From the NCBI GenBank assembly GCA_019312665.1, contig JAFDCZ010000015.1, positions 1-58,961 of the forward strand: 58,961 nucleotides of DNA, in the 5' to 3' direction. Shown one piece after another: positions 2,788 through 58,961 of the stretch. The DNA comes from Deltaproteobacteria bacterium (lineage in GTDB: Bacteria > Myxococcota_A > UBA9160 > UBA6930). The position numbers and the translations under genes were made by a program. Position 1 is the stretch's first letter; every line of letters begins with the position of its first letter. The notes below the pieces were generated by a model. That model searched no databases. It had not been told where the DNA came from and saw only the letters and a list, made by a program, of their open reading frames with translations.

Positions 2788-4445
2788 GCGAAGAGCTCGG
2801 CGACGCCAGCACGCTCGCGTGCATCGCCCGAGCGAGAAGCAGCGAAGCCACCGCCCCGACGCTCGACGCGCTCCCCTGGCACGACTTCCAGACGCTATGC
2901 GAAGCCCGCGCCGGCGAGGGCGATCGACCGTTCCTCATCTTCCATGGCCACGAAGGCCGCGAGCTTTGGAGCTACGCGACACTTCTCGCCGCCGTTCGCG
3001 CCAGGGCCGAGCTGCTTCACCACCAACTCGGCATCGAACGCGGCGAACGCGTCGCGCTGCTCCTGCACAACGACCCGCAGGTACCCATTTCGACCTTTGC
3101 CGCCTGGCGCATCGGGGCGTGCGTGGTTCCGATCAACCTGGGCGAAGACGACGAACGGGTGCGGTTCGTGCTCGAAAACGCCGCCTGCCGTGTCGCCCTC
3201 TATCTTCCCGAGTACGCAGACCGGGTCGAAGGGCTTCGAGCCGCCCTGCCCGGGGTCGAGCATTGGATTGCGCTCGAGCCGGGAATCGATCCTGCACCCG
3301 AGCCCGGTGAAGCCCTGCCCTCTCCGGCCCCCGAAGACGAGGCGTTGATCGTCTACACCTCCGGGACCACCGGCGCGCCCAAGGGCGTGCTCCTCACCCA
3401 ACGCAACCTGTTGGTCGACGCCCATGCCCTTGCCCAATGGAATGAGGTGGGCCAGGACTCGGCGTTGATGTGCGTCCTCCCGACCCACCATGTGAACGGG
3501 CTGATCGTCACGCTCTTGATGCCCTTCCTCGCCGGCGCCCGCAGCGTGCTCGAGCGCCGCTTTCACACCGGCGGCTTCTGGCGACGCATCGCAGAAGAGA
3601 ACGTCCAGATCGTCTCGGTCGTGCCCACGCTTCTTGCGTTCCTGCTCGAGGACGAAGCCGGGACCGAAGGGCTCGACCTCGGCGGCTTCCGCCACTTGAT
3701 CTGCGGGGCGGGCCCTTTGACGGTGGAACTGGCCGCCAGGTTCGAGGATCGCTTCAGCTTCCCGATCCTCCACGGCTACGGCCTCTCGGAAACCACCTGT
3801 TACTCGTGCATGCTGCCCGTCGATCTGCTCGAGAACGAACACCGGGCCTGGCTGCGCGAGCACGGATTCCCCTCGATCGGCGTTCCCCTTCCCCCGAACG
3901 AGATGGCCATCCACGACGAACAGGGAAGGCCCGCGGCCGATGGCGCCCGAGGCGAGATCGTCGTCCGTGGTGTGAACGTAATGAAGGGCTATTTCCGCCG
4001 GCCGGAAGCCAACGCGGAAACCTTCGCTCATGGTTGGTTCCGCAGCGGCGACGAGGGGTTCCTGGAGCGAGACGCGAACGGCCGCCCCTGGTTCTTCATC
4101 ACGGGCCGAATGAAAGAGCTGATCATTCGCGGCGGCGTCAATCTCTCGCCCTTCGAAATCGACGAAGTGCTCAATCAGATCCCCGGCGTCGCCCGCGGCC
4201 TGGCCGTCGGCTTTGAGAATCGTTGGTACGGCGAGGAGGTCGGCGCCTACGTCATGCGCGAGCCCGGCGCGGAGATCGACGAAGCCAGCATCCTCGCAGC
4301 CTGCCGCGAAACCCTTCCGTTCGCGAAGTCTCCGAAGGTGGTCGTCTTCGGAGAGGACATCCCCGTCACCTCGACGGGCAAATACCAACGCAACCGGCTT
4401 CGACCTCACTTCGAAGCCTGGCGGGACGAGCAGTTCCGGCGCTAG
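2784..4445 (+). CDS. AMP-dependent acyl-CoA synthetase/ligase
   Basis: This 553-residue adenylate-forming enzyme activates a carboxylic acid with ATP and transfers it to CoA. It has the A3 phosphate loop YTSGTTGAPKG (191-201), the hinge region around FFITGRMKELIIRGG and the catalytic C-terminal Lys533 in TSTGK. Its LLTQRNLLVDAHALAQW and FHTGGFWRRI segments resemble fatty acid or oxalate/acyl-CoA synthetases, but the substrate cannot be read from sequence. It starts at a GTG that overlaps the ridA stop. The last ten codons and the stop lie within the first unit of a three-copy 39-bp repeat. Confidence 0.9.
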   Translation: MSEELGDASTLACIARARSSEATAPTLDALPWHDFQTLCEARAGEGDRPFLIFHGHEGRELWSYATLLAAVRARAELLHHQLGIERGERVALLLHNDPQVPISTFAAWRIGACVVPINLGEDDERVRFVLENAACRVALYLPEYADRVEGLRAALPGVEHWIALEPGIDPAPEPGEALPSPAPEDEALIVYTSGTTGAPKGVLLTQRNLLVDAHALAQWNEVGQDSALMCVLPTHHVNGLIVTLLMPFLAGARSVLERRFHTGGFWRRIAEENVQIVSVVPTLLAFLLEDEAGTEGLDLGGFRHLICGAGPLTVELAARFEDRFSFPILHGYGLSETTCYSCMLPVDLLENEHRAWLREHGFPSIGVPLPPNEMAIHDEQGRPAADGARGEIVVRGVNVMKGYFRRPEANAETFAHGWFRSGDEGFLERDANGRPWFFITGRMKELIIRGGVNLSPFEIDEVLNQIPGVARGLAVGFENRWYGEEVGAYVMREPGAEIDEASILAACRETLPFAKSPKVVVFGEDIPVTSTGKYQRNRLRPHFEAWRDEQFRR

Positions 4446-4528
4446 CCGACCGAAGCCTGGCGGGACGAGCAGTTCCGGCGCTAGCCGACCGAAGCCTGGC
4501 GGGACGAGCAGTTCCGGCGCTAGCCGAC
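4413..4528. repeat. 39-bp tandem repeat, three copies, over the synthetase stop codon
   Basis: Units start at 4413, 4452 and 4491 and are essentially identical until the end of the third. Each contains GAAGCCTGGCGGGACGAGCA and a TAG. The first unit encodes the end of the acyl-CoA synthetase; the other two are non-coding and end just before the stop of the convergent CPBP gene. Confidence 0.95.
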
Positions 4529-14096: not shown

Positions 14097-14271
14097 TCGC
14101 CGGGGCTGGGCACAGGCCGGTCGGAATGGCTCGGCCGGGGATCGGGTGGCCGCGTAGGGAGCGGGACAGGGTGTTGCCCTTTGCGGCTTCGCCGCGGTCA
14201 ACCTACGCGCACGCAGGACGGGACCTATGCCTGCGCTTTATTTCCGCCCGGCCTGCGCCCAGCCCCGGCGA
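14097..14271. repeat. type A inverted-repeat element, copy 1
   Basis: This 175-bp intergenic element is bounded by terminal inverted repeats of about 28 bp with two mismatches, beginning TCGCCGGGGCTGGGCACAGG. The interior contains GGTGTTGCCCTTTGCGGCTT. Copy 2, inverted, lies at 49246-49421. It encodes no plausible protein, so it looks like a non-autonomous, MITE-like repeat. A type B element follows 26 bp later, and the pair fills most of the 516-bp gap between the glutamate synthase and CoA transferase genes. Confidence 0.8.
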
Positions 14272-14296
14272 AGCGGTCCCAGTTGCCAGCACGGCC

Positions 14297-14448
14297 GATC
14301 GCGGGGCGGGGGGCGGTCAGCGCGGAAGTAAAAGCGGAGCCAGGCCCGAGAGTACGCGCCCTCCCGCTGCGCACTCGGCATACCAGGTGCACGCGCGTTC
14401 GAGGGTCTGGTGAGCCATGGAGCGCTGGCCGCCCCCCGCCCCGCGATC
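14297..14448. repeat. type B inverted-repeat element, copy 1
   Basis: This 152-bp element has GATCGCGGGGCGGGGGGCGG at its left end and its near-exact reverse complement at the right end. The interior includes CGGAAGTAAAAGCGGAGCCA. Two more copies of the same length lie at 24677-24828 and, inverted, at 48921-49072. The flanks CCAGTTGCCAGCACGGCC on the left and ACGAGAAGCGAAGCGG on the right are shared with copy 2, so the repeated unit is larger than the inverted-repeat core. Confidence 0.88.
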
Positions 14449-14521
14449 CATCACGAGAAGCGAAGCGGGGCTCTGGCGAACGACGAGAGATCGGGGGTGA
14501 TCTTCGCGTATCCTCTCGGAT

Positions 14522-20604: not shown

Positions 20605-22565
20605 GCCCCGTCGGACAGGAAAAGATCCTCGGGAATTTCGAGACCCTGCGTGTGCTTGGACGTGCCTTTCGTTACGCAGCTCCATTCCGACGACGCTTCG
20701 CGATCAAGTACCTGCTCTCGCTGGGCGCCCTGTTGCCGCTCTTCATCACCCCGTGGCCCGTGAAGATCATCGTCGACCATGTCATCGAGGCCCGGCCGGT
20801 CCTTCCAGCCAACTACCCCGCCTTCCTCCGCCCCTTTACCGAGGCGCTCAGCGGCCTGCCACCGAACGAGATCCTGCTCTGGATGATCGTCTTGCAGGCA
20901 GCGCTGTTGGTCCTCGTCGGTGCGGTCGGCACCGGCGGTGGCGAGAGGGATCGCGCCGAATCCCATCTGGCGGGAGGCCACGACCAGGCCAGCCGTACGG
21001 AGAACGAAGCCAATGAGGGTTGGTCCCTGGCCAGCGGCTTGTTCGGCCTGATCGATTTCCGGTTCACCATCCAACTCACCCAGGCACTGAACCACCACTA
21101 CCGCTCTCGCCTCTTCGAACGCATTCAAGCGTTGCCGATGGCCGTCTTCGACGACGAACGCATTGGTGATGCGGTGTTCCGGGTCATGTATGACACCCCG
21201 GCGATCACCCACGGCGTCTACCGGATCATCCTCACGCCGTTCACCGGAGCCGCATTTGCGTTGGCCACGGTTGGCGTCATTTTCCTTCTCTTCGGGGATC
21301 AACCGATCTTCTGGCAGGCGGCCCTCGGGATGTTGGCCATCTCGCTCGTCGTCAGCCTGCCTTTCACCGGCATCTTGCGACGGCGCAGCCGTGCCAGCCG
21401 GGAAGCCGGCGCATCGACCACCAGCAGCCTCGAGGAGGGCCTCTCGAACATCCTGGCGGTCCAGAGCCTGGGTGCCGAGGATCGAGAGCAGGATCGCTTC
21501 GGCAACGACAGCTGGAGTGCCTTCGCCAACCATCGCGCCGTGATGGTCGTCGGCATGGGCATCTTCTTCTTCGCCCTCCTTCCGGGAATGTGGCTGGGGA
21601 CGAAGGTCTTCCTCTACGGCGCAGACATGGTGATTGCAGGTGCCATCAGTCGCGGCGATTTCATCCTGCTCTTCACCTACTTCCTCTACCTGCTCTTCAC
21701 CTGCATCGATCTGGGCACCTTGTGGATCCGCCTGCAGGAATCCGCAGTGGGCCTGCACCGCGTGTTCTTCTTGATGGATCTACCGACGGAGGAGGAGGCG
21801 CCCGGCACGCCGGAGCTTCCCCAGGCGGTCGAGCGGGTCGAGATTCGGAATGCCCATTACGCCTACCCGGATGGAACGCCAGCCCTGCGCGGCGTGAATC
21901 TCGACCTGGAGAGGGGCGAGATCGTCGCACTCGTCGGCCCTGCCGGCGCGGGGAAGACCACGCTGGCCGGTCTGATTCCGCGCTTCCATGACCCGGACGA
22001 GGGCCGCGTGCTCTTCGACGGCGCCGACGCCCGAAACTTCACGCGCACGTCGATTCGCGAGCAGGTCGCGTTCGTGTTCCAGGAGACGGTCCTCTTCGAC
22101 GCCAGCGTGGAAGAAAACATCCGTCTGGGGCGGCCGGATGCAAGCGACGCCGATGTTCGCAGAGCTGCAGTACGCGCCGGAGCCGACGAATTCATCCGCG
22201 AACTTCCCCAGGCCTATCGCACCCGGCTCGGCCGAGGCGGCGGCAAGCTTTCCGTCGGCCAGAAGCAGCGGATCGGGATCGCTCGCGCCCTGGTGCGCAC
22301 GTCTCCGATCCTCATTCTGGACGAGCCCACCTCCGCACTCGATCCGGAGACCGAGCGCGCCCTGGTCGAAACCATGGAAGAGGCCCGCCGCGAACGCTCC
22401 GTGCTGGTGATCGCTCACCGCCTCTCGACCATTCGCCACGCGGATCGGATCGCGTTCGTCGATGAAGGCCAGATCCTGGAGATCGGCAGCCACGCCGACC
22501 TGATGGCACGGCCGGACGGCGCCTATCGCCGCTTCGTGGAGTTGCAAACTGTGGGCGCTGCCTAA
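20601..22565 (+). CDS. ABC exporter, permease-ATPase fusion (half 2)
   Basis: This 654-residue protein has the same architecture as its upstream partner: a membrane domain (about 1-390) and an NBD with Walker A GPAGAGKTT (446-454), signature LSVGQKQR, Walker B ILILDEPTSA and AHRLST. It carries a polar insert (about 113-140) between the first two membrane segments that the partner lacks. The TTG at 20601 overlaps the upstream TGA (TTGA) and has GGTGGGAG nearby; longer versions starting at 20403 run inside the upstream gene and are rejected. It ends 13 bp before a perfect long hairpin. Confidence 0.9.
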   Translation: MSPVGQEKILGNFETLRVLGRAFRYAAPFRRRFAIKYLLSLGALLPLFITPWPVKIIVDHVIEARPVLPANYPAFLRPFTEALSGLPPNEILLWMIVLQAALLVLVGAVGTGGGERDRAESHLAGGHDQASRTENEANEGWSLASGLFGLIDFRFTIQLTQALNHHYRSRLFERIQALPMAVFDDERIGDAVFRVMYDTPAITHGVYRIILTPFTGAAFALATVGVIFLLFGDQPIFWQAALGMLAISLVVSLPFTGILRRRSRASREAGASTTSSLEEGLSNILAVQSLGAEDREQDRFGNDSWSAFANHRAVMVVGMGIFFFALLPGMWLGTKVFLYGADMVIAGAISRGDFILLFTYFLYLLFTCIDLGTLWIRLQESAVGLHRVFFLMDLPTEEEAPGTPELPQAVERVEIRNAHYAYPDGTPALRGVNLDLERGEIVALVGPAGAGKTTLAGLIPRFHDPDEGRVLFDGADARNFTRTSIREQVAFVFQETVLFDASVEENIRLGRPDASDADVRRAAVRAGADEFIRELPQAYRTRLGRGGGKLSVGQKQRIGIARALVRTSPILILDEPTSALDPETERALVETMEEARRERSVLVIAHRLSTIRHADRIAFVDEGQILEIGSHADLMARPDGAYRRFVELQTVGAA

Positions 22566-22578
22566 CCGAACCGGAATC

Positions 22579-22661
22579 GGGGACGTTCTTTCCGCTGTTT
22601 CCGTTGTTCGGGTCGGGCTTTGCCCGACCCGAACAACGGAAACAGCGGAAAGAACGTCCCC
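22579..22661. repeat. type C long perfect palindrome, copy 1
   Basis: Two 40-bp perfectly complementary arms (22579-22618 and 22622-22661) are separated by a 3-nt TTT loop. The outer arm is GGGGACGTTCTTTCCGCTG followed by TTTCCG. It lies between the stop codons of two convergent genes and could act as a bidirectional transcript end. There is no U-tract after either arm. Confidence 0.95.
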
Positions 22662-22667
22662 GTCACG

Positions 22668-23792
22668 TCATGGGGCCACGGCGCCGGGCGTATCGAAACC
22701 ATCGGGCAGGTAGGTGCCCATGATCATGTTCTCGTGCATGGCGTAGCAGACCTCGCCGGTTTCGAGCTCGAAACGGGAGAGCGTTTCGTTCAGGCCAGCC
22801 CACTCACTGCGTTCCGCCTGCGTGCTCAGTGCGAAGCGCAGGCCTTCGACTTTGAGAGCACCCTGGTAGTAGCCATGGCCCCAGCCGTCGTGAGGCATGT
22901 AGCCGGTCCCGGCGCGGAGATAGACCGTGCGCACCGGCTGGCTTCGGATCTTCAGTTCCCGACCACTCGGATGAACGAGTGTGATGTCCGCATGCTCGAT
23001 CTCACGGGTGCCCGAGATATAGGAGACGTCGATCTTCGGCCTGCCGAGATCCACCGGCTCCTTGTTCAGGCCGGGGTTCCAGACCTGCACGGCTTCTTCG
23101 AGCACGGGCGTTCCATCGTGGTGCTCATCGAGTTGCACCTTCAACATCGAATCCTCGAGCTGAAGGGGACACCAATGATGGTAGAAGCCGGCAGTGCCCG
23201 CCTGAAGATCCTTCAGACGGATCCCAGGGGCTTCGGCCTCGCCCACCGGGCGGATTCCCCAGGAGCGATCTCGTGCGCCCTTCCATCGATCGGGCGTCAC
23301 CTCGAAGATCTGCCCCGCTACCTCGAGCGTGCCCTCCCAGCTGCCAACCTGGGCGTAGCGGGTGGTATCCGCGGTGACGCGCCCGTGATTGCGCCGCAAG
23401 GTTCGGGGCTCCTCCTGAGCGGGAACCTGCCCGACGAAGGTCATGTCGAATGCCACGCCCCACTCGTTGGGGTCGCAAATGACGCGGAGCTTCTGGAGAC
23501 CTTCGAGCACCTCGACGCGAAAGGGCCCGGCCGACGTATCGAGGCGATCACTGCCGAGCTCCCGGGAGGCACGCACCACGTACTGGGTGGTCCCATGGGA
23601 AATGGCGACGAACGCATCCGTCACGCCGAGGTTCGGATACTGACCGAGCCCCGTGACCAGGAAGAGCTCATCCGAAGACGGATGGCAATTGAAGTAGTAA
23701 CGGTCGTAGAAATTCTTGTCCGAAGTCGCGACGTGGTCGAAGGTGTCCGGCGTCTGATGCGCCAGGAACTCATCCATGGGACTGATGGGCAT
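22668..23792 (-). CDS. conserved hypothetical protein, possible AttH/CrtC-like lipocalin fold
   Basis: This 374-residue protein has no signal peptide or membrane segment. It is rich in beta-strand-like and aromatic segments, such as NFYDRYYFNCHPSSDELFLVTG, WKGARDRSWGIRPVG and GFYHHWCPLQLEDSM. The RDRSWGIRP motif and the overall layout recall proteins with paired lipocalin-like domains related to hydroxyneurosporene synthase/AttH, which often sit in lipid or steroid gene clusters of actinobacteria and proteobacteria. That assignment is from memory and is not tested. The ATG at 23792 has GGAGGAGA upstream. It converges on the ABC exporter. Confidence 0.7.
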   Translation of the reverse strand: MPISPMDEFLAHQTPDTFDHVATSDKNFYDRYYFNCHPSSDELFLVTGLGQYPNLGVTDAFVAISHGTTQYVVRASRELGSDRLDTSAGPFRVEVLEGLQKLRVICDPNEWGVAFDMTFVGQVPAQEEPRTLRRNHGRVTADTTRYAQVGSWEGTLEVAGQIFEVTPDRWKGARDRSWGIRPVGEAEAPGIRLKDLQAGTAGFYHHWCPLQLEDSMLKVQLDEHHDGTPVLEEAVQVWNPGLNKEPVDLGRPKIDVSYISGTREIEHADITLVHPSGRELKIRSQPVRTVYLRAGTGYMPHDGWGHGYYQGALKVEGLRFALSTQAERSEWAGLNETLSRFELETGEVCYAMHENMIMGTYLPDGFDTPGAVAP

Positions 23793-23878: not shown

Positions 23879-24631
23879 ATGTTCCGCACCCTCTCTCTGG
23901 TGATGCTCGCCTCGACCCTGACCCTGGTCGGCTGCGGCGGCCCGCAGGCCTGGCGGCGCGCTGCTTCGAACGCCAGCGCCAGCCAGCCTGCACCCGGCAG
24001 CGAGCTGAACGGCATCCTGGTTGGCCTGTTCGAACCCCCAGCGGGCGAGGGACACAAGCTGGAGGTCGTCGAACTTCGCCTGCTTGCGATGGGCGAGCCG
24101 CCGTGGGCGACCCTCGAGCCAGGAAGCGCTGCGGCCCGGCACGGCCGCGTAGGGCTCACGACCCATCGGATCTGCCGACTGCGCGAGGGTTTGACCTTTC
24201 ACCGGGTCGAGCGCGCAAGTTGGATGATCTTCGAGGACGGGATGCTCCTGGCCTGGGATCACGGCACCTTCAAGCCCGGCTGCGAAGCCGGCCGCAGCTA
24301 TCGCCCTGCCCGCGTCGAGTTTCTCGACCTCGAGCGAGGATTGCTTCGCTACTACGCCCAGCGCTATCCCGCAGCATGGCCAACTCTCGAGGAGCGCCTG
24401 CGCGGCGGGCTGGCCCTGCTGGAAGCCGACCGCCTGGAAGATGCGAAGCGCGTACTCAAACATGCGGATGGAAACGTGACCCAGCTCTCCGACCACACGG
24501 AGACCGTTTTCGGTGATGAGCGCGAAGCCGCAGAACAGCGGCTCGTCATCGTCAAAGCCCTCCACGTCAAACTACGCAGAGCAGTCCGAAAAGCCGAACG
24601 AGAAGCCGCCAAACAAGCAGACGCCTCCTGA
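23879..24631 (+). CDS. lipoprotein of unknown function
   Basis: This 250-residue protein begins with a clear lipoprotein signal (lipobox LVGC, Cys19). The mature part has a Cys-containing central region with strands (HRICRLREGLTFHRVERASWMIF, HGTFKPGCEAG) and ends in a highly charged helical tail. I do not recognise a family. It is divergent from the conserved hypothetical gene 86 bp away, so they may share a regulatory region. A type B repeat follows 45 bp after its stop. Confidence 0.7.
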   Translation: MFRTLSLVMLASTLTLVGCGGPQAWRRAASNASASQPAPGSELNGILVGLFEPPAGEGHKLEVVELRLLAMGEPPWATLEPGSAAARHGRVGLTTHRICRLREGLTFHRVERASWMIFEDGMLLAWDHGTFKPGCEAGRSYRPARVEFLDLERGLLRYYAQRYPAAWPTLEERLRGGLALLEADRLEDAKRVLKHADGNVTQLSDHTETVFGDEREAAEQRLVIVKALHVKLRRAVRKAEREAAKQADAS

Positions 24632-24676
24632 CCCGGCGCCCGCCCCGGCAAACCGGTTCCAGTTGCCAGCACGGCC

Positions 24677-24828
24677 AGTCGCGGGGCGGGGGGCGGTCAG
24701 CGCGGAAGTAAAAGCGGAGCCAGGCCGGAGAGTACGCGCCCTCGCACTGCGAGCTCGGCAAACCGGGTGTATGCGCGTTCGACGGTCTGGTGAGCCATGG
24801 AGCGCTGGCCGCCCCCCGCCCCGCGATC
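24677..24828. repeat. type B inverted-repeat element, copy 2
   Basis: This 152-bp element is in the same orientation as copy 1, and the core plus shared flanks (24659-24850) are nearly identical to it. It fills most of the 286-bp gap between the lipoprotein gene and the convergent parA-like gene. No type A element accompanies it. Confidence 0.88.
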
Positions 24829-24917
24829 CGGCACGAGAAGCGAAGCGGCCCCAAGAGTCCGGCGACCACGAGAGACCCTCACGGTTTCAGTCTCTACGAC
24901 CTTCTTGCGGCCCCTAC

Positions 24918-33964: not shown

Positions 33965-34828
33965 ATGAGTCCTGCCCCCGAAACTGCAACGCTGATCGTC
34001 ACTTGTCCGGACCGGAGGGGGATCGTGGCCAGCCTGGCCCAGGTGCTCCACGGCCACGGCGGCAACATCCTCGATGCGGATCAGCATACGGACGTTGGCG
34101 CGGGGCAGTTCTTCCAGCGCATCCGTGTGGATCTGGCGGAGCTCACCTCCGACCGGACGAGTTTCGAAGGAGCCATCGCGGAGGTCGCCGAACGCTTCCA
34201 CATGGAGTGGCACATCACGTGGCCCGGCGACAAGAAGAGGGTGGCGATCTTCGTCTCGCGCTACGACCACTGCCTCTGGGATCTGCTGCTCCGTCACCGG
34301 GCGGGAGAGTTCGATTGTGAGATCGTCGCGGTCATGAGCAACCATCCGGACCTCGAACCGATTTCGACACAATTCGGCGTAGGCCATCATGTATTCCCGA
34401 TCACCAAGGACACGAAGTCGGATCAGGAGCGAAGGGAACGTGAACTTCTCGACGGTCTGGGCGTCGACCTGATCGTGCTTGCCCGATACATGCAGGTGCT
34501 TTCCGGGGAATTCGTGGCGGCGTATCCGAACCGGATCATCAACATCCACCACTCCTTCCTGCCCGCCTTCATGGGCGGCAAGCCCTATCACCAGGCCTTC
34601 GACCGGGGCGTCAAGCTGATCGGTGCCACCGCCCATTATGCAACGACGGATCTCGATGAGGGACCGATCATCGAACAGGCCGTCGTCCGCACGTCGCATC
34701 GGGATTCGGTCAAAGACCTGCTGCGCAAGGGACGCGATGTCGAGCGGATGGTGCTCGCCAAAGCCGTTCGCAACCACCTGGAAGATCGGGTGATCGCCTG
34801 CGCCAACAAGACCGTGGTATTCGAGTGA
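33965..34828 (+). CDS. purU: formyltetrahydrofolate deformylase
   Basis: This 287-residue enzyme hydrolyses 10-formyl-THF to formate and THF, supplying formate to PurT or balancing one-carbon pools. It has an N-terminal ACT domain (about 7-85; LIVTCPDRRGIVASLAQVL) and a C-terminal formyltransferase domain with the catalytic set Asn193 and His195 (NIHHSFLPAF) and Asp231 (ATTDLDEGPII). These are the residues conserved with PurN. The ATG at 33965 is used; an in-frame GTG two codons earlier also exists. The 575-bp region upstream is non-coding and structured. Confidence 0.95.
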   Translation: MSPAPETATLIVTCPDRRGIVASLAQVLHGHGGNILDADQHTDVGAGQFFQRIRVDLAELTSDRTSFEGAIAEVAERFHMEWHITWPGDKKRVAIFVSRYDHCLWDLLLRHRAGEFDCEIVAVMSNHPDLEPISTQFGVGHHVFPITKDTKSDQERRERELLDGLGVDLIVLARYMQVLSGEFVAAYPNRIINIHHSFLPAFMGGKPYHQAFDRGVKLIGATAHYATTDLDEGPIIEQAVVRTSHRDSVKDLLRKGRDVERMVLAKAVRNHLEDRVIACANKTVVFE

Positions 34829-34859
34829 GGAAGAAGATGCATTCCAGGCGGGCGACCTC

Positions 34860-35825
34860 ATGAACACCGGACTGCGCATCGTCGTGCTCGGCATCCTCAC
34901 CGCCCTCGTGATCGGAATGTGGGCGATGGCCTGGATCTCGAAACGCTTCGAGGCCGTGGCCGAGGGTGTCGCGGCTCTCGAGGCCCGCCGCTTCGAGACC
35001 CTCTCCGCGGTTGCCGTCGGAACGGGCGGAATCTTCGAGAACCACAACCGATCGGGCCCGGCCATCGCGGTGGGCCTCGGGCGCGACATGCTGCTGGTCG
35101 ACGCGGGCCGGGGCGTGGCATCGGCACTCCGCGCGGCAGAGATCCCCGCCTGGCAGCCGTCCCACCTGATCATCAGCCAGCTCCTGCCCGAGAACACCCT
35201 CGGCCTGGACGACCTCTGGCTCAGCGGGTGGCTCGGCCAGCGAGAGGTGCCGCTCCAGATCCTGGGCCCGCCGGGCACTTCCCAGCTGGTGGAACGGCTG
35301 CGCAGCGTCTACGAGGGCGAGGCTCAGCGGCAGGCCGAACTCTGGGGCCTGTCCGCGGAGGGTGGCCTCACTCCCGTCCAGGAAGTCACGAGCGAGACCC
35401 GGCTTCAAGTCGGCGAAATGGAAGTGGTGCTCGTCCCGCTGGCTGGAACCGACCCGCCCGTCCTCGGCCTTCGGATTCAATCTGCGACCCGCTCCCTGGC
35501 CATCGCCACCCGGGGCCTGCCGGCAGCGGGTGTCGAAGAGTTGGCCCGCGGCACCGATTGGCTGTGGACGGAGGCCTTGTACGGGGCCTCTCTCGACGCC
35601 GCCGAGGAGGCCGGCATCGACCAACTGGAGCAGCTCAAGAACGAAGCGTCTCTGCACCTCCACCTCGAAGACGCCGGCGCTCTCGCCTCTCGTGCCGGCG
35701 TCCGAGGCCTGGTGCTGATCCGCCTGCGTCCGCCGCCGGTGTTTTCGTCGCGCTACCGAGACCTCGTCGGCGAGACCTTCTCCGGAGCGGTTGTCCTGCC
35801 AGAGGACGGAGAGGTCATCGAGTAG
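34860..35825 (+). CDS. membrane-anchored metallo-beta-lactamase-fold protein without metal ligands
   Basis: This 321-residue protein has an N-terminal membrane helix (about 7-27) and then the outline of an RNase Z-type MBL domain: VAVGTGG, LLVDAGRGV, GLDDLWLSGWLGQREVPLQILGPPG. The motif that should read HLHSDH is QLLPEN, and the later His and Asp positions (RHG, SGDT, HxSH, LTH) are also replaced. No zinc site can be formed, so it is a likely pseudoenzyme with a binding or structural role. It is 31 bp after purU and ends just before a long hairpin. The ATG at 34860 has no strong ribosome site. Confidence 0.72.
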   Translation: MNTGLRIVVLGILTALVIGMWAMAWISKRFEAVAEGVAALEARRFETLSAVAVGTGGIFENHNRSGPAIAVGLGRDMLLVDAGRGVASALRAAEIPAWQPSHLIISQLLPENTLGLDDLWLSGWLGQREVPLQILGPPGTSQLVERLRSVYEGEAQRQAELWGLSAEGGLTPVQEVTSETRLQVGEMEVVLVPLAGTDPPVLGLRIQSATRSLAIATRGLPAAGVEELARGTDWLWTEALYGASLDAAEEAGIDQLEQLKNEASLHLHLEDAGALASRAGVRGLVLIRLRPPPVFSSRYRDLVGETFSGAVVLPEDGEVIE

Positions 35826-35830
35826 CGGAA

Positions 35831-35917
35831 GCGGGGACGTTCTTTCCGCTGTTTCCGTTATTCGGGTCGGGCTCCGCCCGACCCGAATAACGGAAACAGC
35901 GGAAAGAACGTCCCCGC
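35831..35917. repeat. type C long perfect palindrome, copy 2
   Basis: Two 42-bp perfectly complementary arms (35831-35872 and 35876-35917) flank a TCC loop. The outer arm matches the other copies; the inner arm differs from copy 1 by one base with the matching change in the other arm. It begins 5 bp after the stop of the MBL-fold gene and runs into the frame of the convergent rhomboid gene. Confidence 0.95.
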
Positions 35918-35918
35918 A

Positions 35919-37178
35919 CCGTTGTTCGCGGAAGTAGCCGATGCGCGGTGCCAGACGGATCGCCTCATCGATCAGATCGACGGCTTCGCTGCGCCGGCCG
36001 CGTAGAAACGCAATCTCCGCCAGCGTATCGAGAAGCGACGGATTGGTCCGGGAGGTCTCGTCCACCGCCCGCTCTGCCATGCGTTCGGCGACAGCCAGCC
36101 GCTCTTCGCTCACGTCCTCGGAGATCGCGATCATCCAGGCTTCGTCGTTCAGCAGGCCCGGAGAGGCCGAGGGGTTCTCGATCAACCGGCTGGCGCGACG
36201 CAGGCTCGCCATGTCAGGCGCCAGGACCGACCAGCCGAGCCCGACCAACCCGAGTAGCACCAGAGCGCCCGATGCGAAGCCGACACGCTGAATGCCGAGC
36301 CCGGTAGGCTTGCCGGGAACGAGGCCGGCCGTCACGGCCCAGGCTCCCAACGCGCCGCCCGCCAGACCGCCCCAGTGGGCCGCATGAGCCACGCCTGGCA
36401 AAAAACCCGTCAGCAGCAGATCACCCGCGACCAGGCCCAGGAGCAGCCCGCGATGGATCCGCCAAGGCGCCGGGACCTGTTCCGGACGAACGACCTCGAG
36501 GACCACCATCCCACCTGCCAGACCCATCACGAGACCCGATGCGCCGATCACCACCGGATAGCCGGCCGCCGAAGACGCCCAGACCGTCCCCACGCCTGCC
36601 AGGAGCAGCACTGCGGCCGTTCGGGAGGGCCCCAGGATGCGCTCCACGAAGCTACCGAGCGCCCACAGACCCAGGCCGTTCAAGAGCAGATGCGGAGAGA
36701 GCAGGGCCCTGAGGCCTTCACCGAAAGGCTCGTGGAGGAAGTGGCCTGTGACCATGCGCCAGGGCTCGATGGAGGACAGCTCCAGGTGAAGGGCACCGGC
36801 CTCCGTGAAGCCAGGAACGAGCAGCTGGAGGGCGAAGAGCAGCCCACACAGGCCGAGCAGCGCGTGCGTCAGCCGGGGGGGCTGCGCTCGGCTGACGATC
36901 CGGTCGAGAGCCTCCATTCCCTGCAGCCGCTCCGCACCGTCCGGAAGCTCGCCGACCCGGGCGCGTAGAGCCTGGGCCACACGCAGCACGGAGGCCGAAT
37001 CCGAGAGGAAGACCCGCGGGATCCCGAGCACTCCACCACGGGTACTGAGGCGCAGCCCTCGCGGGGTGGCAGCGACATGGATCAGGTCGCGATAGGCAAC
37101 GAACGCCCCACGACGACCCGGCCCCGGAAGCCTGGCTCCGGTCTCGAGGAGTTCGACGCTGGGAGGAAGCCCGTCCAT
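35919..37178 (-). CDS. rhomboid family serine protease with its 3' end interrupted by a hairpin
   Basis: The recognisable protein is about 420 residues. A soluble N-terminal part (1-105) leads into a six-helix rhomboid domain with Asn167 (HLLLNGLG), the catalytic Ser214 (GASGLVMG) and His268 (HAAHWGGLAGG). A TPR-like helical tail follows (about 340-420). It would cleave membrane substrates within the bilayer. The frame has no stop of its own: after FREQR it enters the type C palindrome and stays open, antisense to the MBL-fold gene, until a stop at 34710. The true C-terminus has thus been lost or is extended by unrelated sequence. Confidence 0.85.
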
Positions 37179-48885: not shown

Positions 48886-48920
48886 GCCTCCTCTGGGGGC
48901 CGCTTCGCTTCTCTTTGTGG

Positions 48921-49072
48921 GATCGCGGGGCGGGGGGCGGGCAGCGCTGCATGGCTCACCAGGGCCTCGAACGCGCTTGTACCCGGTTTGCCGAGCTCGC
49001 AGTGCGAGGGCGCGTACTCTCGGGCCTGGCTCCGCTTTTACTTCCGCGCTGCCCGCCCCCCGCCCCGCGATC
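48921..49072. repeat. type B inverted-repeat element, copy 3 (inverted)
   Basis: This 152-bp copy is in the opposite orientation to copies 1 and 2. It is preceded by GCCGCTTCGCTTCTC (48899-48913), the reverse complement of the right flank of the other copies. It is the left part of a 566-bp gap with no genes. Confidence 0.88.
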
Positions 49073-49245
49073 GCACATTGAGGTGGGTACGGGACTGCGT
49101 CGCTAGTGTCAGGGTTTGGGTGGAGACGTTATGCGGTTTCATTCGCAGGAGATGCCACGAGCAGGCTCCACCGTTTCAGCAAGCACCGGAACTCTTTCTC
49201 CGCCCCGAACCCACTGGGTTCGGCGACCTTCCTCATGAGAACCGC

Positions 49246-49421
49246 GCGCCGGGGCTGGGCGCAGGCCGGGCGGAAATAAAGCGCAGGCATAGGTTCCCTT
49301 TCAGCGTGCGCGTAGGTTGCCCGCGGCGAAGCCGCAAAGGGCAACACCCCGTCCGCCTCTCTACGCGGCCACCCGGCCCCCGGCCGAGCCATTCCGCCCG
49401 GCCTGTGCCCAGCCCCGGCGA
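49246..49421. repeat. type A inverted-repeat element, copy 2 (inverted)
   Basis: This 176-bp element is inverted relative to copy 1, with the same terminal repeats (CGCCGGGGCTGGGCGCAGGC) and interior (CGGAAATAAAGCGCAGGCAT). It ends 30 bp before the PAC2 gene stop. A type B element precedes it at 48921, so the A-B pairing of the 14-kb block recurs in reversed order. Confidence 0.8.
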
Positions 49422-49451
49422 AGCGAACGCCGTCACGAGCAGCGAAGCGGC

Positions 49452-52022: not shown

Positions 52023-53498
52023 ATGTCCGCCACGTTCCGTCTCGTCGCCGCCGCGATTCTCGCAACAGCGCTGCTGCTCGCCCAGACGGCCAGCGGAGAG
52101 CTGCCTCCGGAGGGCCGCTGTCCTGACTTCACTGGCGCCCCCGGGGAACCCGGCGACATCGACACGGGCACGCCGCTCGTCAAAGAGGGAGCGCTCATCG
52201 ACCTGAACGATCTGCTGGCCCTCCGCCAGCTGCTTCCGGAGGAGGTCTGGAGCTACCGGGAGGCCTTCTTCTACGAGGGCATGCAGATGACGATCGGCTT
52301 CTGCCACCGGCGCTACCCGGTGGCCGACTTCTACCGGGATGCCACCGAAACCTTCCGCGGCCGCGCCACGTTGGACGACGAGGGGAACCTGACGAACTAC
52401 GAAGCCGGCCTGCCCTTCCCTCCTGATACGATCGATCCGGAGAGCCAAGATGCCGCGATTCGCTGGGCCTGGGATTTCGAGCACCGCTACCGGGGCTCGG
52501 GCCCGGTCGGGAGGTTTCGACTCACGGACATGCCCAGCCGGATCGGCACGCCTCAGACCTTTGAAGGCACCTGGCACTTCCTGCGCACGGGTCATCGCTC
52601 GGACCTGGTTGCCAGCGACTACCGCGTAGCCGAATCCACCAAGACCGAGTGGGTGGCCGGCGGCCGGTTCCTGGAGCCCACCAATGCCCGGCACCTGGCT
52701 TGGCGGCAGGCTCGCCCGCGCTCGTCCGCGACGGACTACACGGAGCCTGATGACATCTTCGTCTACGTCCCAGACCTCCGGAAACCCCGCCGCGCAGCCA
52801 GCACCTGGACCGACGGGCTCTACACCCCGCGTTACAGCGTCTCTGGCGTCGAGGGGGCAGGCGGCTCCGTACCGTTCGGAACCAGCGGCGGTTCCGAACT
52901 CTCGCCCGGCGGACTCGAGGCGATCGCGCCTACTGCGGGCCTCTTGTTGGCCGCCACCGAGGACATCCGCAAAGGCTTCACGGGCATGGCGCTGCGCCCG
53001 AACGCGTACGATTGGACCTTGCTGGGCATGCAGGAGGTTCTCGCCCCGCTGAACGGCGTTGAAGAAGGCTGGCCTGGCATGAGCAACCGCAACTACGGCC
53101 ACACCGGCCTCTCGGTGGCCAGCGATCGCTGGGATGTCCGCTACGCCGTGGTCGTCCGCGGTCGCTCTCGCCGGGTGATCGACCACGTGGCTGCCATCAC
53201 CCTGTGGATCGACTACCAGACCCAGCAGCCGCTCTACTTCATCTCACAGCGCAAGAACGGCTTCCTGCTCGATATCGGCATCCTGGTGCACCGCTTCAGC
53301 GGCGATCGTGCCGGCTACCCGGCCTGGCCAGGGGGCGAACGCGCTCGAGTCTTCGACCCGGTCGCCGCCTCCTTCTACTACGTTCCGGGCGGCGGCGCCG
53401 GATGGCGGCGCGAATCCTACGACGTCCAATCCGTTCCGGTCGATCCCGGCAAGCTGCGAAAGCTCACGTCGACCGACGAGTTGATCAAGGGCCGGTAA
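52023..53498 (+). CDS. DUF1329 family (LolA-like) exported protein
   Basis: This 491-residue protein has a signal peptide (about 1-25) and the DUF1329 features EVWSYREAFFYEGMQMTIGFCHRRYPVADFY, IRWAWDFEHRYRGSG, PDDIFVYVPDLRKPRR and QQPLYFISQRKNGFLLDIGILVHRF. Family members have a LolA-like fold and are usually encoded with DUF1302 outer-membrane proteins, as here. The job of the pair is not established; a role in handling hydrophobic compounds is inferred from their usual surroundings. It ends 3 bp before a long perfect hairpin. Confidence 0.88.
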   Translation: MSATFRLVAAAILATALLLAQTASGELPPEGRCPDFTGAPGEPGDIDTGTPLVKEGALIDLNDLLALRQLLPEEVWSYREAFFYEGMQMTIGFCHRRYPVADFYRDATETFRGRATLDDEGNLTNYEAGLPFPPDTIDPESQDAAIRWAWDFEHRYRGSGPVGRFRLTDMPSRIGTPQTFEGTWHFLRTGHRSDLVASDYRVAESTKTEWVAGGRFLEPTNARHLAWRQARPRSSATDYTEPDDIFVYVPDLRKPRRAASTWTDGLYTPRYSVSGVEGAGGSVPFGTSGGSELSPGGLEAIAPTAGLLLAATEDIRKGFTGMALRPNAYDWTLLGMQEVLAPLNGVEEGWPGMSNRNYGHTGLSVASDRWDVRYAVVVRGRSRRVIDHVAAITLWIDYQTQQPLYFISQRKNGFLLDIGILVHRFSGDRAGYPAWPGGERARVFDPVAASFYYVPGGGAGWRRESYDVQSVPVDPGKLRKLTSTDELIKGR

Positions 53499-53500
53499 GC

Positions 53501-53599
53501 CGGGAATCGGGGACGTTCTTTCCGCTGTTTCCGATACGGATTGGGGGCGATGCCCCCAATCCGTATCGGAAACAGCGGAAAGAACGTCCCCGATTCCCG
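53501..53599. repeat. type C long perfect palindrome, copy 3
   Basis: Two 48-bp perfectly complementary arms (53501-53548 and 53552-53599) flank a GAT loop. The outer part is shared with copies 1 and 2, but the inner 15 bp is different and still perfectly paired. It sits between the convergent DUF1329 and DUF1302 stop codons with only 2 and 1 bp to spare. Confidence 0.95.
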
Positions 53600-53600
53600 C

Positions 53601-56600
53601 CTAGAACGTGTAGCGGAGGCGGAGGAAGACCTCGTCCCGCTCACGGATCGCTGACAAGCCCGGTTCGGTGAATTGCTTGTTGGCATCTTTGCCGATGCGG
53701 TTGTTGTTGCCATCCGCCGGGTCGTTGATCGACGCGTCGAACTCCTTCCAGCGTCCGGCGAAGATACCGAGGCCTAACGTGGTAGAGAAGTTCTCGGTGA
53801 ATCGGTAGGTCACCTGGGGCAGCCAGGCACCGGAGTTCGATCTGACGTCGTAGACGAAGGTCATCGACGCCAACAGCCGATCCTGGAAATAACCCGTTGC
53901 AGCCGTGAACGTGAAGAATGCGTTCCATGGCCCGGTCCGGGTGTGACTCTGACGATAGTCTTCGATGTACTGAAAGAACCACTGGCTGTTGAAGAAGAAC
54001 GTCCGATTGGCGTTCATGAAGTTGACGAACGTCGGCCGGTCCACCGAGATCGTCAGGTTGAAGGTATCGATCTCCGTATTGCCATCGAAGGCATCCGCAT
54101 CGGCGGTCGGCAAACCCTCTTGCCAGGTGAACTCGATGCCCCAGTTGGTCTTCGTGATGTCCTCGGCGAAATCCATCGAGAAGCCCAGCACGTTGCGCTT
54201 CTCATAGCGGAGGACCAGATCCGTGCCGGCCGACCAAAGGAAATTGCGGCGACCGAAGCGGCCATTCCCGCCGGCCTTGATGCTGGATCGGGTGAGGCCC
54301 GACAAGCCTCCCAGCAGGCCCTTCACGCTGGAGCACCAGATGGGGCGGGCATAGGAACAACGATCCTTGGAGAACGAGTCGTCCGGATTGAACACGTCGC
54401 GGCGTTTGGCGTCGTCCCGTGTGAAGACCACGCCGTCATCCCCCTGAGAGAGCGCCACGAAAGCCAACAGGAAATTCCAGGAAACGATCGCCATCTCGCT
54501 GCGGAAGGCCTGCCCCGTGAAAGGATGCACGGCACCGCCGGTCGAGCCATCGACCCTCGGGTCATAGCAAGCGTCTCGGGCGCCTCTCGCACCGGGGATC
54601 TGACAGGCCTCTCCGCGTCGGCCCCCGATGACCTCGCCTTCGAAATCCACGGTACCGGGCTGCGCCTTGCCACGATCCGTCGTGTCCCAGATTGCACCAC
54701 CGTCTTGGAAGGTGCCCTGCACACCAGGCCAGGACTGGAAGAAGACACTCGCCTCGGTGTTGAGGAAGTCGATGCCGTGGACGTCGCAATTCGTTCCGTA
54801 GAACGAACCACAGCCGAGAAGCGCCTCCTGCTCGTTGGTCAGGAAAGGTGATAGACCTGACAGGAGAGCCAGGGTGGCCAAGCCGGGGGTGATCGGAGTC
54901 GACGCCGGAAACAAGGCCTCCGAAGCCGCGAGACCGTCGAAGACGCCCCTGTCGAGGGGAACCAGTGGGCTCGGCAGGAAGGAGAACCCGATGAAGTCGA
55001 AGAAGGTCGTCCCGGGCGGGCAGGTCGAGCACTGCGCCATTAATGGTGCGTTGGCCACGAGCTGTGCAGAGGTCGTCGGCGTCAGCCCGCCCAGGCCATA
55101 GTAGAAGGTATTCCCGTTCAGGGTGGCGGGCGTGTTGTCACCTGCAGCGATCATCCCGAAGACCGTCGATAGCGGCACGGGCGCCGGAGCGACGACGACC
55201 TGGCTGTTGAAAATGCTCTGGGCGCAGGCCGAAGGATCGAGGGACGATACACCGACCGTTCCAGCGCATACCCAGGCAAAGATCGATTGGTTGACACTGT
55301 GATGGAGGAGCGAGTTGTCCTCTGTGAGGCACGCATCCTCACTGCCGTGCCGGCAGCTGCCCGTCGTCTGGCCCTTGCGCGGTCGGCCGGAGTTGGGATC
55401 GACATTCCGGCTGTAGCTGAACAGCACATCCGCATAGGGAAGATCGTCGTAGCCGTAGAAATCCGTCAGCGCGAACGAGAAGCGGCCCCAACGCCACTCG
55501 AGCCGCGCGCCGATATCGATACCCTTCCAGCTGTTCCAGGGGTTGGGCGGCCGAATCTCTCCCGCCAGACCAATGCCGTTCTGGCCGTGGTTCAGCAGGC
55601 CAAACGTCTTGCCGCAGGCGACGAGCGGCGAGTACGGCTCACCACATCGGCCGATGTCGTTGGGCTCGAACTGATCGAAGATCGCCGCGACCTCGATGCG
55701 CACATCCTCGAACGGACCCACGTCATAGAAGGAGTAGACCGCGCGCAGCGCCCACTGGGCGATCCGGCTCTCCTCCAGGGAGGGCAGCGTCGCCAGGGCC
55801 AGATCGCGCGGGTTGAGCTGGTCGGTGGTGCTGAAGAGTTCCGTCTTCCCCCAGACCATGGTCTGCTTGCCAGCCCGCACCCAGAGCCGGCTGTCGAACA
55901 TCTCGAATTCGAGATAGGCCTCTTTCAGCTCCTTCTCGTCCTGTTGCGAAGCACCTCGGTTCCATTGCAGCTCGTTGACCGTGAAGTTCTGGTCGAAAGC
56001 ATCGAAATCGCCGTCCCGTAGGGCCTGCTGCAGGCGTTCATTCGGATACCAGACCCCGCTGGGAACTTCGGGCGGTGCGCCCGCGTCGAAGCGGACCTCC
56101 GGAGCAGGGCGGAGCGGAAGGGCTCCGCCTCCGCCCGCGCCTCCGAGCACAGGGCCATTGAAATCGTGCGCGCGGAACGGATTCGGTACCTGCTTCGCAT
56201 CGTGAAGCGGCTCGATCTTGCACTTCATGTTGTGAACGAGCTGCTGGTTGCCAAAACCGTTGACGACACCACGTGTGCGGCGGCTCGCGAACAAGCACTC
56301 CTCGAGGTTCTGGAACAAAAGCTGTGCAGGATCGTCGCTGCCCGGAGTGAAGAACTCGTCGTCCAGCACCCCGTCGAGGCCCGCGCTGGCACCGAAGAAG
56401 CCGTCGTAGGAGATCGAACCGTCGGCTCCGACGGCGACTCTCGAGCCCGGAAGGACGGTATTGCGGTATCGAAATTCGTGGCCGCTGATGTTCCCATCGA
56501 ACGCCCGCCGGATGTCTCCGGTGAATTGCGTCCCGTCGAACCCGCTCTCGCGGCCGTTCTGGATCCTCGACGGCAACCGTCCGGGCCTGTCCCCGTAGAC

Positions 56601-56936
56601 GTCGACGTTGTCGAACATCCAGCAGCCGCGTCGCCAGACGCAATCGAAGCGAGCCTCGATGCGGGCAAAACCGCTCACCAGGTCGAAGGGGCCGAACCCA
56701 TCCGGCGCGATCTCGGCTTCGACTTCCAGGTTCAGCACGTGATACCACTGGGTCAGGTCCCAGTCGTTCTTGCCGGTGAAGTCTGTCCAGATGGATCGGA
56801 TCTGCTGCTCGTAGAAACCGTGGATCTGGAGCCTGCGATCGAAGAACTCGAGGGCCGCGGCAGGCAGGGAGACCAGAACGAGCAGAAGCGCTGTAGCGAC
56901 GCCTCGCATCCAACGAGCCGAAGGAGCAGCCTGCAT
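53601..56936 (-). CDS. DUF1302 family outer-membrane protein, large form
   Basis: This 1111-residue protein has a signal peptide (about 1-32; LLLVLVSLPAAALEF) and long beta-rich regions with terminal Phe (RLRYTF), typical of an outer-membrane barrel. DUF1302 signatures include GFYEQQIRSIW, LEFEMFDSRLWVRAGKQTMVWGKTELFSTTDQLNPRDLA and, near the end, FNLTISVDRPTFVNFMNANRTFFFNSQWFFQYIEDY. It is nearly twice the usual 550-650 residues because of a Cys-containing insert of roughly 300 residues (CSTCPPGTTFFDF, LLGCGSFYGTNCDVHGIDFLNTEASVFFQSW). The ATG at 56936 has AGGAGG upstream. Confidence 0.88.
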   Translation of the reverse strand: MQAAPSARWMRGVATALLLVLVSLPAAALEFFDRRLQIHGFYEQQIRSIWTDFTGKNDWDLTQWYHVLNLEVEAEIAPDGFGPFDLVSGFARIEARFDCVWRRGCWMFDNVDVYGDRPGRLPSRIQNGRESGFDGTQFTGDIRRAFDGNISGHEFRYRNTVLPGSRVAVGADGSISYDGFFGASAGLDGVLDDEFFTPGSDDPAQLLFQNLEECLFASRRTRGVVNGFGNQQLVHNMKCKIEPLHDAKQVPNPFRAHDFNGPVLGGAGGGGALPLRPAPEVRFDAGAPPEVPSGVWYPNERLQQALRDGDFDAFDQNFTVNELQWNRGASQQDEKELKEAYLEFEMFDSRLWVRAGKQTMVWGKTELFSTTDQLNPRDLALATLPSLEESRIAQWALRAVYSFYDVGPFEDVRIEVAAIFDQFEPNDIGRCGEPYSPLVACGKTFGLLNHGQNGIGLAGEIRPPNPWNSWKGIDIGARLEWRWGRFSFALTDFYGYDDLPYADVLFSYSRNVDPNSGRPRKGQTTGSCRHGSEDACLTEDNSLLHHSVNQSIFAWVCAGTVGVSSLDPSACAQSIFNSQVVVAPAPVPLSTVFGMIAAGDNTPATLNGNTFYYGLGGLTPTTSAQLVANAPLMAQCSTCPPGTTFFDFIGFSFLPSPLVPLDRGVFDGLAASEALFPASTPITPGLATLALLSGLSPFLTNEQEALLGCGSFYGTNCDVHGIDFLNTEASVFFQSWPGVQGTFQDGGAIWDTTDRGKAQPGTVDFEGEVIGGRRGEACQIPGARGARDACYDPRVDGSTGGAVHPFTGQAFRSEMAIVSWNFLLAFVALSQGDDGVVFTRDDAKRRDVFNPDDSFSKDRCSYARPIWCSSVKGLLGGLSGLTRSSIKAGGNGRFGRRNFLWSAGTDLVLRYEKRNVLGFSMDFAEDITKTNWGIEFTWQEGLPTADADAFDGNTEIDTFNLTISVDRPTFVNFMNANRTFFFNSQWFFQYIEDYRQSHTRTGPWNAFFTFTAATGYFQDRLLASMTFVYDVRSNSGAWLPQVTYRFTENFSTTLGLGIFAGRWKEFDASINDPADGNNNRIGKDANKQFTEPGLSAIRERDEVFLRLRYTF

Positions 56937-57230
56937 GAACCCTCCTGCCCGGGCATTCGTTCTTCCGCTGCGGCTGCGTCGACACGAACGTCCGGGGCGC
57001 TTTCCCCCAACAACATTTTCGTAGCCGGCCCATGTGTGGAAACAGGCCAGCATGCCCCTTCGGGTGTGGCACGTGAGGCCCGAGGCCCCCTTCGCGCCGC
57101 CCTTCAGCAAGAAGCATGTATACGCCGAAACCCCCGCCAATACAATCGAAAGAGACACGACCGTGGCCAACGGAAGAGGGCCCGGCGGGTCACACCCGCC
57201 AGGCCCCGTGGGATACCGAGTATCGGAAAG
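56937..57230. other. non-coding gap between tandem DUF1302 genes
   Basis: I see no gene or repeat family in this 294-bp stretch. The frame of the downstream gene is open through it, but the sequence is not family-like. It probably holds the promoter of the first DUF1302 gene. Confidence 0.5.
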
Positions 57231-58961
57231 CTAGAAGGTGTATCGGATCCGCAAGTACACCTCGTCCCGCTCGCGAATCACCGAGAGCCCGGGCTCACCG
57301 AAGGACTTGTTGGCGTTCCTGCCCACGCGGTTGGAAGCACCGTCGCCGATACCGTTGATCGACGCGTCGGTCTCTTTCCAGCGGCCAGCGAAGAGCCCCA
57401 GGCCGAGGGTCGCCGAGAAGTTCTCGGTGAACCGGTAGGTCGCCTGGGGCAGCCAGGCGCCGGAGTTTGATCGGACGTCGTAGACGAAGGTCATCGAGGT
57501 CAGCAGCCGATCCTGGAAGTACCCGGTCGAAGCCGTGAGCGTGAAGAAGAAGTTCCACGGGCCCGTTCGGGTATGGCTCTGCTTGTAGTCCTCGATGTAC
57601 TGGAAGAACCACTGGCTGTTGAAGAAGAACGTCCGGTTCGCGTTCATGAAGTTGATGAACGTCGGCCGGTCCACCGAGACCGTCAGGTTGAAGGTATCGA
57701 TCTCCGTGTTGCCGTCGAAGGCGTCCGAGTCGCCGCTCGGCAGGCCCTCCTGCCAGGTGAACTCGACGCCCCAGTTGGTCTTCGTGACGTCCTCTGCGAA
57801 GTCCATCGAGAAGCCCAACACATTGCGCTTCTCGTAACGAAGCACGACGTCACCGCCGCCCTGCCAGAGGAACGTGCGCCGGCCGAAGCGACCGTTTCCG
57901 CCGGCCTTGATGCTCGAACGGGTGAGACCAGTCACGGCCAGCAACGCGACGACATTGCCGCACCAACTGGGGCGGGCGAAGGAGCAGCGATCCTTCGCGA
58001 ACGCATCGGCCGGATTGAGGACTCCCTTGTTGTTCGCGTCCTTCCTCGTGAACGTCGCCCCCTGCTCTCCCTGGCTGAGCGCGACCAGTGCCATCAGGAA
58101 GTTCCAGGACACGACGGCCATCTCGGACCGGAACTCCTGACCGGTGATCGGATGCAACGCTCCGGCTGGATCCCCGTCGACGCGTGCGTTGTAGCACGGG
58201 TCGCTCGGGCCACGTGAGCCCGGAAGATCGCAAGCTTCGCCGATCCGGCCGGCCACGCGTTCGCCGAGGAATCCGATGGTTCCAGGCTGGGCGACGCTTC
58301 GATCGGTCGTGTCCCAGATGGCGCCACCTTCCTGGTACGTCCCCTGGATGTTGGGGAACGACTGGAAGAAGACACCGGCCTCCGCATTGAGGAAGTCGAC
58401 GCCGTGGATGTCGCAGTCGGTCTCATAGAACGGACCGCAACCCAGCAATGCCTCCTGCTCGTTCGTCAGGAACGGATCGAGACCCGAAAACAGGGCAAGC
58501 GTTGCAAAAGCCCCGCCGAGATTCGGCTGAGTAGAGGCGGGGAACTGAGACGTGCTCGCCGCGCTGCCATCGAACGGCCCTGCGTCGAGCGGGACCAGCA
58601 GGCTCGGGAGCAACGCGAAGGTGCCAAAGTCGAAGAAGGTCGTTCCGGCCGGGCAGGTCGAACACTGGGCGATGAACGGGGCATTTGCGGTGATCGACGT
58701 CGCGGTCTCGCCGGTCAAGCCGCCGAGGGCGTACCAGAAGGTACTTCCGTTCAGGGAGCCCGGGGCATTGTTGCCCGCGCCGACCATCGTGAAGACCGTC
58801 GAGATCGGAACGGGTGCAGGCGAAATCACCGTCTGACTGTTGAATACCGACTGGGCGCATGCCGAGCGATCGAGGTTGGAGAAGCCCACGGTGCCTGCGC
58901 AAACCCACGCGAACGCAGTCTGGTTGGCACTGTGTTCCAGGAGCGCATTGTCCGACGTCAG
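57231..58961 (-). CDS. DUF1302 family outer-membrane protein, second paralogue (partial, start outside window)
   Basis: This gene encodes the C-terminal half of a close paralogue of the preceding DUF1302 protein, including the same Cys-containing insert (CSTCPAGTTFFDFG, LLGCGPFYETDCDIHGVDFL) and an identical barrel end (RIRYTF). The frame is open to the window edge, where it reads LTSDNALLEHSANQT, matching LTEDNSLLHHSVNQS in the first copy. A GTG at 58889 is therefore internal, not the start. The two genes are in tandem on the same strand, 294 bp apart. Confidence 0.87.
   Translation of the reverse strand: MTSDNALLEHSANQTAFAWVCAGTVGFSNLDRSACAQSVFNSQTVISPAPVPISTVFTMVGAGNNAPGSLNGSTFWYALGGLTGETATSITANAPFIAQCSTCPAGTTFFDFGTFALLPSLLVPLDAGPFDGSAASTSQFPASTQPNLGGAFATLALFSGLDPFLTNEQEALLGCGPFYETDCDIHGVDFLNAEAGVFFQSFPNIQGTYQEGGAIWDTTDRSVAQPGTIGFLGERVAGRIGEACDLPGSRGPSDPCYNARVDGDPAGALHPITGQEFRSEMAVVSWNFLMALVALSQGEQGATFTRKDANNKGVLNPADAFAKDRCSFARPSWCGNVVALLAVTGLTRSSIKAGGNGRFGRRTFLWQGGGDVVLRYEKRNVLGFSMDFAEDVTKTNWGVEFTWQEGLPSGDSDAFDGNTEIDTFNLTVSVDRPTFINFMNANRTFFFNSQWFFQYIEDYKQSHTRTGPWNFFFTLTASTGYFQDRLLTSMTFVYDVRSNSGAWLPQATYRFTENFSATLGLGLFAGRWKETDASINGIGDGASNRVGRNANKSFGEPGLSVIRERDEVYLRIRYTF

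Follow-up and report, generated by a model that had tools for sequence, protein, structure and literature searches.

The 58,961-nt contig examined here (the window; JAFDCZ010000015.1, from the draft genome of a Deltaproteobacteria bacterium, called G000, with 5.3 Mb in 392 contigs) carries three long hairpins at gene ends, which raises the question of what such structures are and why they lie there. An earlier note had proposed either a bidirectional signal for transcription termination or 3'-end processing, kept under selection for pairing, or a REPIN-like mobile palindrome. Sequence comparisons within and among genomes favor the second proposal: these hairpins are probably (at roughly 0.88) REPIN-type miniature mobile elements of a resident RAYT transposase of the TIRYT kind. 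The hairpins, and the gene that extends across the second of them, are laid out as follows.

22578 to 22662: candidate REPIN, copy 1; perfect arms of 41 bp; outer arms 22579 to 22604 and 22636 to 22661; inner stem 22605 to 22618 and 22622 to 22635; loop TTT at 22619 to 22621
34710 to 37178, minus strand: rhomboid-domain gene that has lost its own 3' end in G000
35831 to 35917: candidate REPIN, copy 2; perfect arms of 42 bp; outer arms 35833 to 35858 and 35890 to 35915; inner stem 35859 to 35872 and 35876 to 35889; loop TCC at 35873 to 35875
53501 to 53599: candidate REPIN, copy 3; perfect arms of 48 bp (53501 to 53548 and 53552 to 53599); outer repeat 53509 to 53533 and 53567 to 53591, plus 8 more matched flank bases per side; loop GAT at 53549 to 53551

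The three perfect hairpins are thus present where they had been reported, except that the arms of copy 1 measure 41 bp rather than 40 bp. The three copies agree completely over their outer 25 bp and the inner part varies together with the partner arm, as had been described; copy 3, when widened to 53498 to 53602, is still 98% paired. Folded as single-stranded DNA, copies 1, 2, and 3 reach -59, -60, and -68 kcal/mol, compared with shuffle means of -16 to -19 kcal/mol (z scores of -17 to -19). The 19-mer GGGGACGTTCTTTCCGCTG occurs six times in the window without a mismatch, where 0.02 occurrences would be expected even at 3 mismatches. No Rfam family was found at the hairpins, the sole Rfam match in the window being a tRNA. 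Other repeats in the window include a 39-nt unit in three identical tandem copies (4412 to 4528), two adjoining minus-strand paralogues (53601 to 57170 and 57231 to 58953; repeat spacing of ~3,630 bp), the first of the DUF1302 type, and a second dispersed family of G+C-rich inverted repeats (14097 to 14468, 24622 to 24848, and 48911 to 49441). The arms of this second family are 25 to 37 nt long and ~98 or 116 nt apart; it is matched many times in each of the four genus relatives (G001 to G004), and one member adjoins a REPIN in G003.

The statement that every hairpin lies only a few bases from the stop codons of a convergent gene pair holds for copies 1 and 3 and fails for copy 2. Copy 1 begins 13 bp past the stop of an ABC-transporter gene (ending at 22565), and a minus-strand gene has its stop end 6 bp away, at 22668. 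At copy 2 only the plus-strand gene terminates (stop at 35825); the minus-strand rhomboid reading frame runs across the hairpin into the antisense of its neighbor and stays open to 34710. The rhomboid orthologue in G003 has its stop immediately at the hairpin, and comparison of the two genomes reveals that ~110 bp are missing beside the hairpin in G000, including the last residues of the rhomboid protein and its stop codon, so that the gene no longer ends there because this deletion removed its C terminus and stop.

The window contains no transposase, but a search of the remainder of the genome, as the earlier note had advised, located a RAYT on another contig.

C140, 7436 to 8326 (equivalent to L038, 3437 to 4327), outside the window: RAYT gene, PF01797 above cut-off

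The outer arm of the hairpins, GGGGACGTTCTTTCCGCTGTTTCCGTT, is the terminal inverted repeat that frames this RAYT-type tyrosine transposase, and in both G000 and G003 the gene has exact inverted repeats of 28 to 31 bp on its two sides. Its motifs are intact (HUH motif NHVH; tyrosine motif YIHQNPVRAGLV), and its C terminus carries an HTH_23 domain (26.6 bits; cut-off, 24.6), with Bac_DnaA_C below cut-off at 18.0 bits. The score against the NCBIfam model NF047646 (REP_Tyr_transpos) was 67.1 bits, under the curated cut-off of 80, and a search of solved structures returned Escherichia coli TnpArep (4er8) as a weak match (E = 0.12). The G003 protein is 87% identical to that of G000 and is framed by the same repeat; between the two genes dN is 0.07 and dS is 0.30 (dN/dS, ~0.24), and purifying selection is therefore indicated. 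Related RAYTs examined across the order also have inverted-repeat flanks, mostly starting with GGGGAC or GGGAC, and among named genomes only distant relatives were found, in a Desulfobacterales and a Planctomycetota assembly. Six more Y1_Tnp proteins in G000 (L032 to L037, outside the window) score 25 to 27 bits, just over the Pfam cut-off, and are apparently another subfamily.

Searching the whole genome for the outer arm, as had also been suggested, showed the 19-mer, with as many as 3 mismatches allowed, 50 times in each orientation (47 and 47 in the genus comparison), i.e., ~50 copies, and the reversed-sequence control gave no match in G000 at the same threshold. From the sequence stretches we extracted 57 full copies, 37 in G000 and 20 in G003, in which the outer arms are paired at 1,477 of 1,482 pairs. 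Since half copies are frequent at G000 contig ends, this count of full copies is probably too low. Each full copy joins two inverted ends in one hairpin, and the many copies are nearly all intergenic. GTAG is absent from the conserved ends, which read GC-GGGGACG and CGTCCCC-GC. At the stem tips GC precedes the loop in 52 of 57 copies, and the loops are purine-purine-A or its complement in 42 of 57 (~7 expected), a bias that may be relevant to a DNA mini-hairpin. A palindromic target around every copy was also considered and set aside, flank matching of at least 6 bp being found in only 9 of 56 copies.

The repeat also occurs in relatives, and within the genus it follows the transposase. G003, which has the same RAYT lineage, holds 24 and 27 arms of the G000 repeat in the two orientations; G002 has two each way, G004 has one, and G001 has none. 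No RAYT of the same kind was found in G002, whose genome is 82% complete and has few repeat copies. The RAYT of G001 is 55% identical to that of G000 and is paired with a repeat of its own, GGGGACGTTGNNTTCATTGTTG, present as 37 and 38 arms and absent from the other four genus genomes; the inner parts of this family are poorly paired. The G004 RAYT (43% identical) goes with a third repeat, GCGGGGCCGGAGTTA; here too the complete copy forms a long, perfectly paired hairpin. RAYT and repeat thus vary together across the genus, giving three cognate pairs within it.

Individual sites differ between species as well. The hairpin of copy 2 is absent from the same junction in G004, G002, and G001, and some other G000 hairpin sites are empty at the orthologous junctions of one or another of these relatives. 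Two junctions that hold a hairpin in G000 coincide with contig breaks in G004, at an arm of the G004 family or a close variant; different families therefore appear to have settled at the same gene ends, as judged from contig ends only. At the copy 3 junction of G004 (C354, ~250 to 880), an apparent Y1-transposase-like gene takes the place of the REPIN. In G003 (C2), only GCGGGGACGTTCCTTG is retained at the site corresponding to the hairpin at L065, 2116 to 2202, which may be left over from the element or may be an arm from a different family. G003 has hairpins at the places of copies 2 and 3, each with two paired changes, and 21 of the 27 G003 REPIN places examined have at least one flank in common with a G000 copy; most copies examined are old, vertically inherited, and older than the split between G000 and G003. 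The arm-framed RAYT, the ~50 copies, the cognate pairs, and the empty junctions in relatives together support the proposal of a REPIN-like mobile palindrome.

Each element would then consist of two inverted copies of the RAYT terminal repeat joined via a short variable stem. By analogy with other RAYTs and with IS200/IS605 enzymes, the RAYT may recognize and nick the outer arm once single-stranded DNA has folded, and this activity may have copied the element in trans. The location of copies behind stop codons might reflect tolerance of insertions there and/or accessibility of the target. Since the G000/G003 split, the outer arms would have stayed constant, through RAYT recognition or homogenization, and the inner stems would have changed in paired steps.

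How these paired steps arise is a separate matter. The matched changes noted in the inner arms are real both across copies and between orthologues. Inner arms are distinct in 52 of 57 copies, yet 97.7% paired, and the mismatch rate within copies is 2.3%, compared with 40% when arms are swapped between copies. In 14 orthologous full pairs, only 7 of 728 outer-arm bases differ, and to stay so constant at old sites they must be under continuing selection or homogenization. Nine equal-length orthologous inner stems (G000 versus G003) comprise 133 base pairs, of which 111 are unchanged, 16 differ at both bases and still pair, and 6 differ at one base only. Paired changes of this kind fit hairpin-templated mutation, selection for the hairpin, or mosaic conversion, and matched inner-arm changes alone do not prove selection on RNA. 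Conversion from another intact copy as the sole cause is disfavored, because 52 of the 57 inner arms are unique; mosaic conversion among copies is a possible source, and the inner arms resemble combinations of recurring blocks.

One alternative accepts the mobile element and attributes the paired inner changes to hairpin-templated mutation (template switching, quasipalindrome correction) rather than to selection on structure, and we give it appreciable weight, though short of even odds. Independent changes at 38 of 266 bases would be expected to leave ~33 one-sided differences and 1 paired difference, far from the 6 and 16 observed; at copy 3 and at L063:2316/L161 the matched differences also continue beyond the element into unique DNA, and mutation of this type is documented for other hairpins (PMC8794818). 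Against this, the same pattern also follows from mosaic conversion or from strong selection on a hairpin, whether of DNA or RNA, and the inner parts of the G001 family are poorly paired. The fuller version, in which inner pairs mutate in place by hairpin template without RNA selection and the RAYT or homogenization fixes the outer arm of each old copy in both species, we consider rather unlikely. If it is true, the hairpins would offer a replicated natural example of covariation that is nearly perfect yet serves no RNA function, and the RAYT would be more a keeper of old repeats than a mover.

The reading of the hairpins as immobile bidirectional terminators, or as 3'-end processing or stabilizing hairpins under RNA-pairing selection, draws on their placement, which we assessed with a home-made codon-usage ORF caller that was applied to sequence stretches and can miss genes. 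Among 53 placed full copies, 24 are convergent, 27 tandem, and 2 divergent, compared with 25, 190, and 51, respectively, for other junctions in the same stretches, an enrichment between convergent genes (Fisher P = 5e-9) that supports this reading, as do the position just past stops, the preservation of pairing while sequence changes, and a hairpin length that could affect 3' ends. The convergent share is about 45% and not all copies, and these context counts rule out a restriction to convergent genes. The distance to the upstream stop is 20 bp or less in 66 of 75 cases (median, 10 bp), and tandem copies lie a median of 60 bp from the next start. The preference for gene ends noted earlier is thus real, but its target is the space just behind a stop codon, in convergent and tandem contexts alike; other REPs have likewise been reported just behind stop codons (PMC3733652).

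Several observations count against termination. No T-run follows the hairpin on either strand of the three window copies, and an intrinsic-terminator scan reported short stems inside the arms of copy 2 only and not the long hairpin. Half of the copies are in tandem contexts, orthologous junctions in three relatives are hairpin free, and in a sister species some of the junctions seem to be taken by another repeat family. On the transcribed strand of tandem copies, all 7 transition-type mismatches would be A-C and none G-U, which, being few and partly nonindependent, argue weakly against selection at the RNA level. Because the T-run is missing and because presence is species specific and follows the RAYT rather than the gene junction, we reject bidirectional termination or processing as the primary function and regard this reading as improbable; a secondary effect on transcripts is possible. 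That the hairpins are fold-back chimeras of a draft assembly is scarcely credible, for although the genome is in many contigs with half copies at their ends, such breaks are expected from real long palindromes, and the rejection rests on a second genome, G003, where hairpins occupy orthologous sites and have flanks and inner sequences particular to that genome.

The REPIN-type family of mobile elements favored here is an unusually clean record of both hairpin arms changing together at one site, and the ~20 places common to two species make the maintenance of arm complementarity directly testable. It also cautions against taking base-pair covariation at gene ends as proof of a selected RNA structure.

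By comparison with known systems, this is a new REPIN family of a known TIRYT/RAYT kind. REPINs have inverted conserved ends, a variable pairing inner part, and compensatory spacer changes, and they are extragenic and RAYT linked (PMC3116915). The hairpins share these properties, including the paired variable interior, but they lack a GTAG-type REP at their ends and an unpaired spacer, their REP sequence is unrelated, and their copy number is in the tens rather than the hundreds. The resemblance extends to the TIRYT, or TIRtron, a RAYT-like gene with long GGGG-type terminal inverted repeats, whose TIR families are dispersed, often as inverted dimers, mostly behind ORFs and often <20 bp from the 3' end (PMC3733652). 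Here too a RAYT is framed by long inverted repeats, with dispersed inverted dimers behind ORFs; in contrast, the dimer is one unbroken hairpin of 40 to 48 bp, and the host lineage is another. The motif GGGGWSAS, stated for some TIRs only, agrees with GGGGACGT at 6 of 8 positions. TnpAREP subclass 2.1 (RAYT group 1) combines a Y1 HUH core with a C-terminal HTH_23 or Bac_DnaA_C-like domain (PMC6006769), and the C-terminal HTH of the present RAYT would place it there, an assignment made by that domain and not by a tree. That survey put 20 of 26 TIRYTs within subclass 2.1 and detected no REP-like sequences in the neighborhood of genes of that subclass (PMC6006769), whereas the RAYT described here links an HTH-bearing transposase of the TIRYT type to a genome-wide repeat family.
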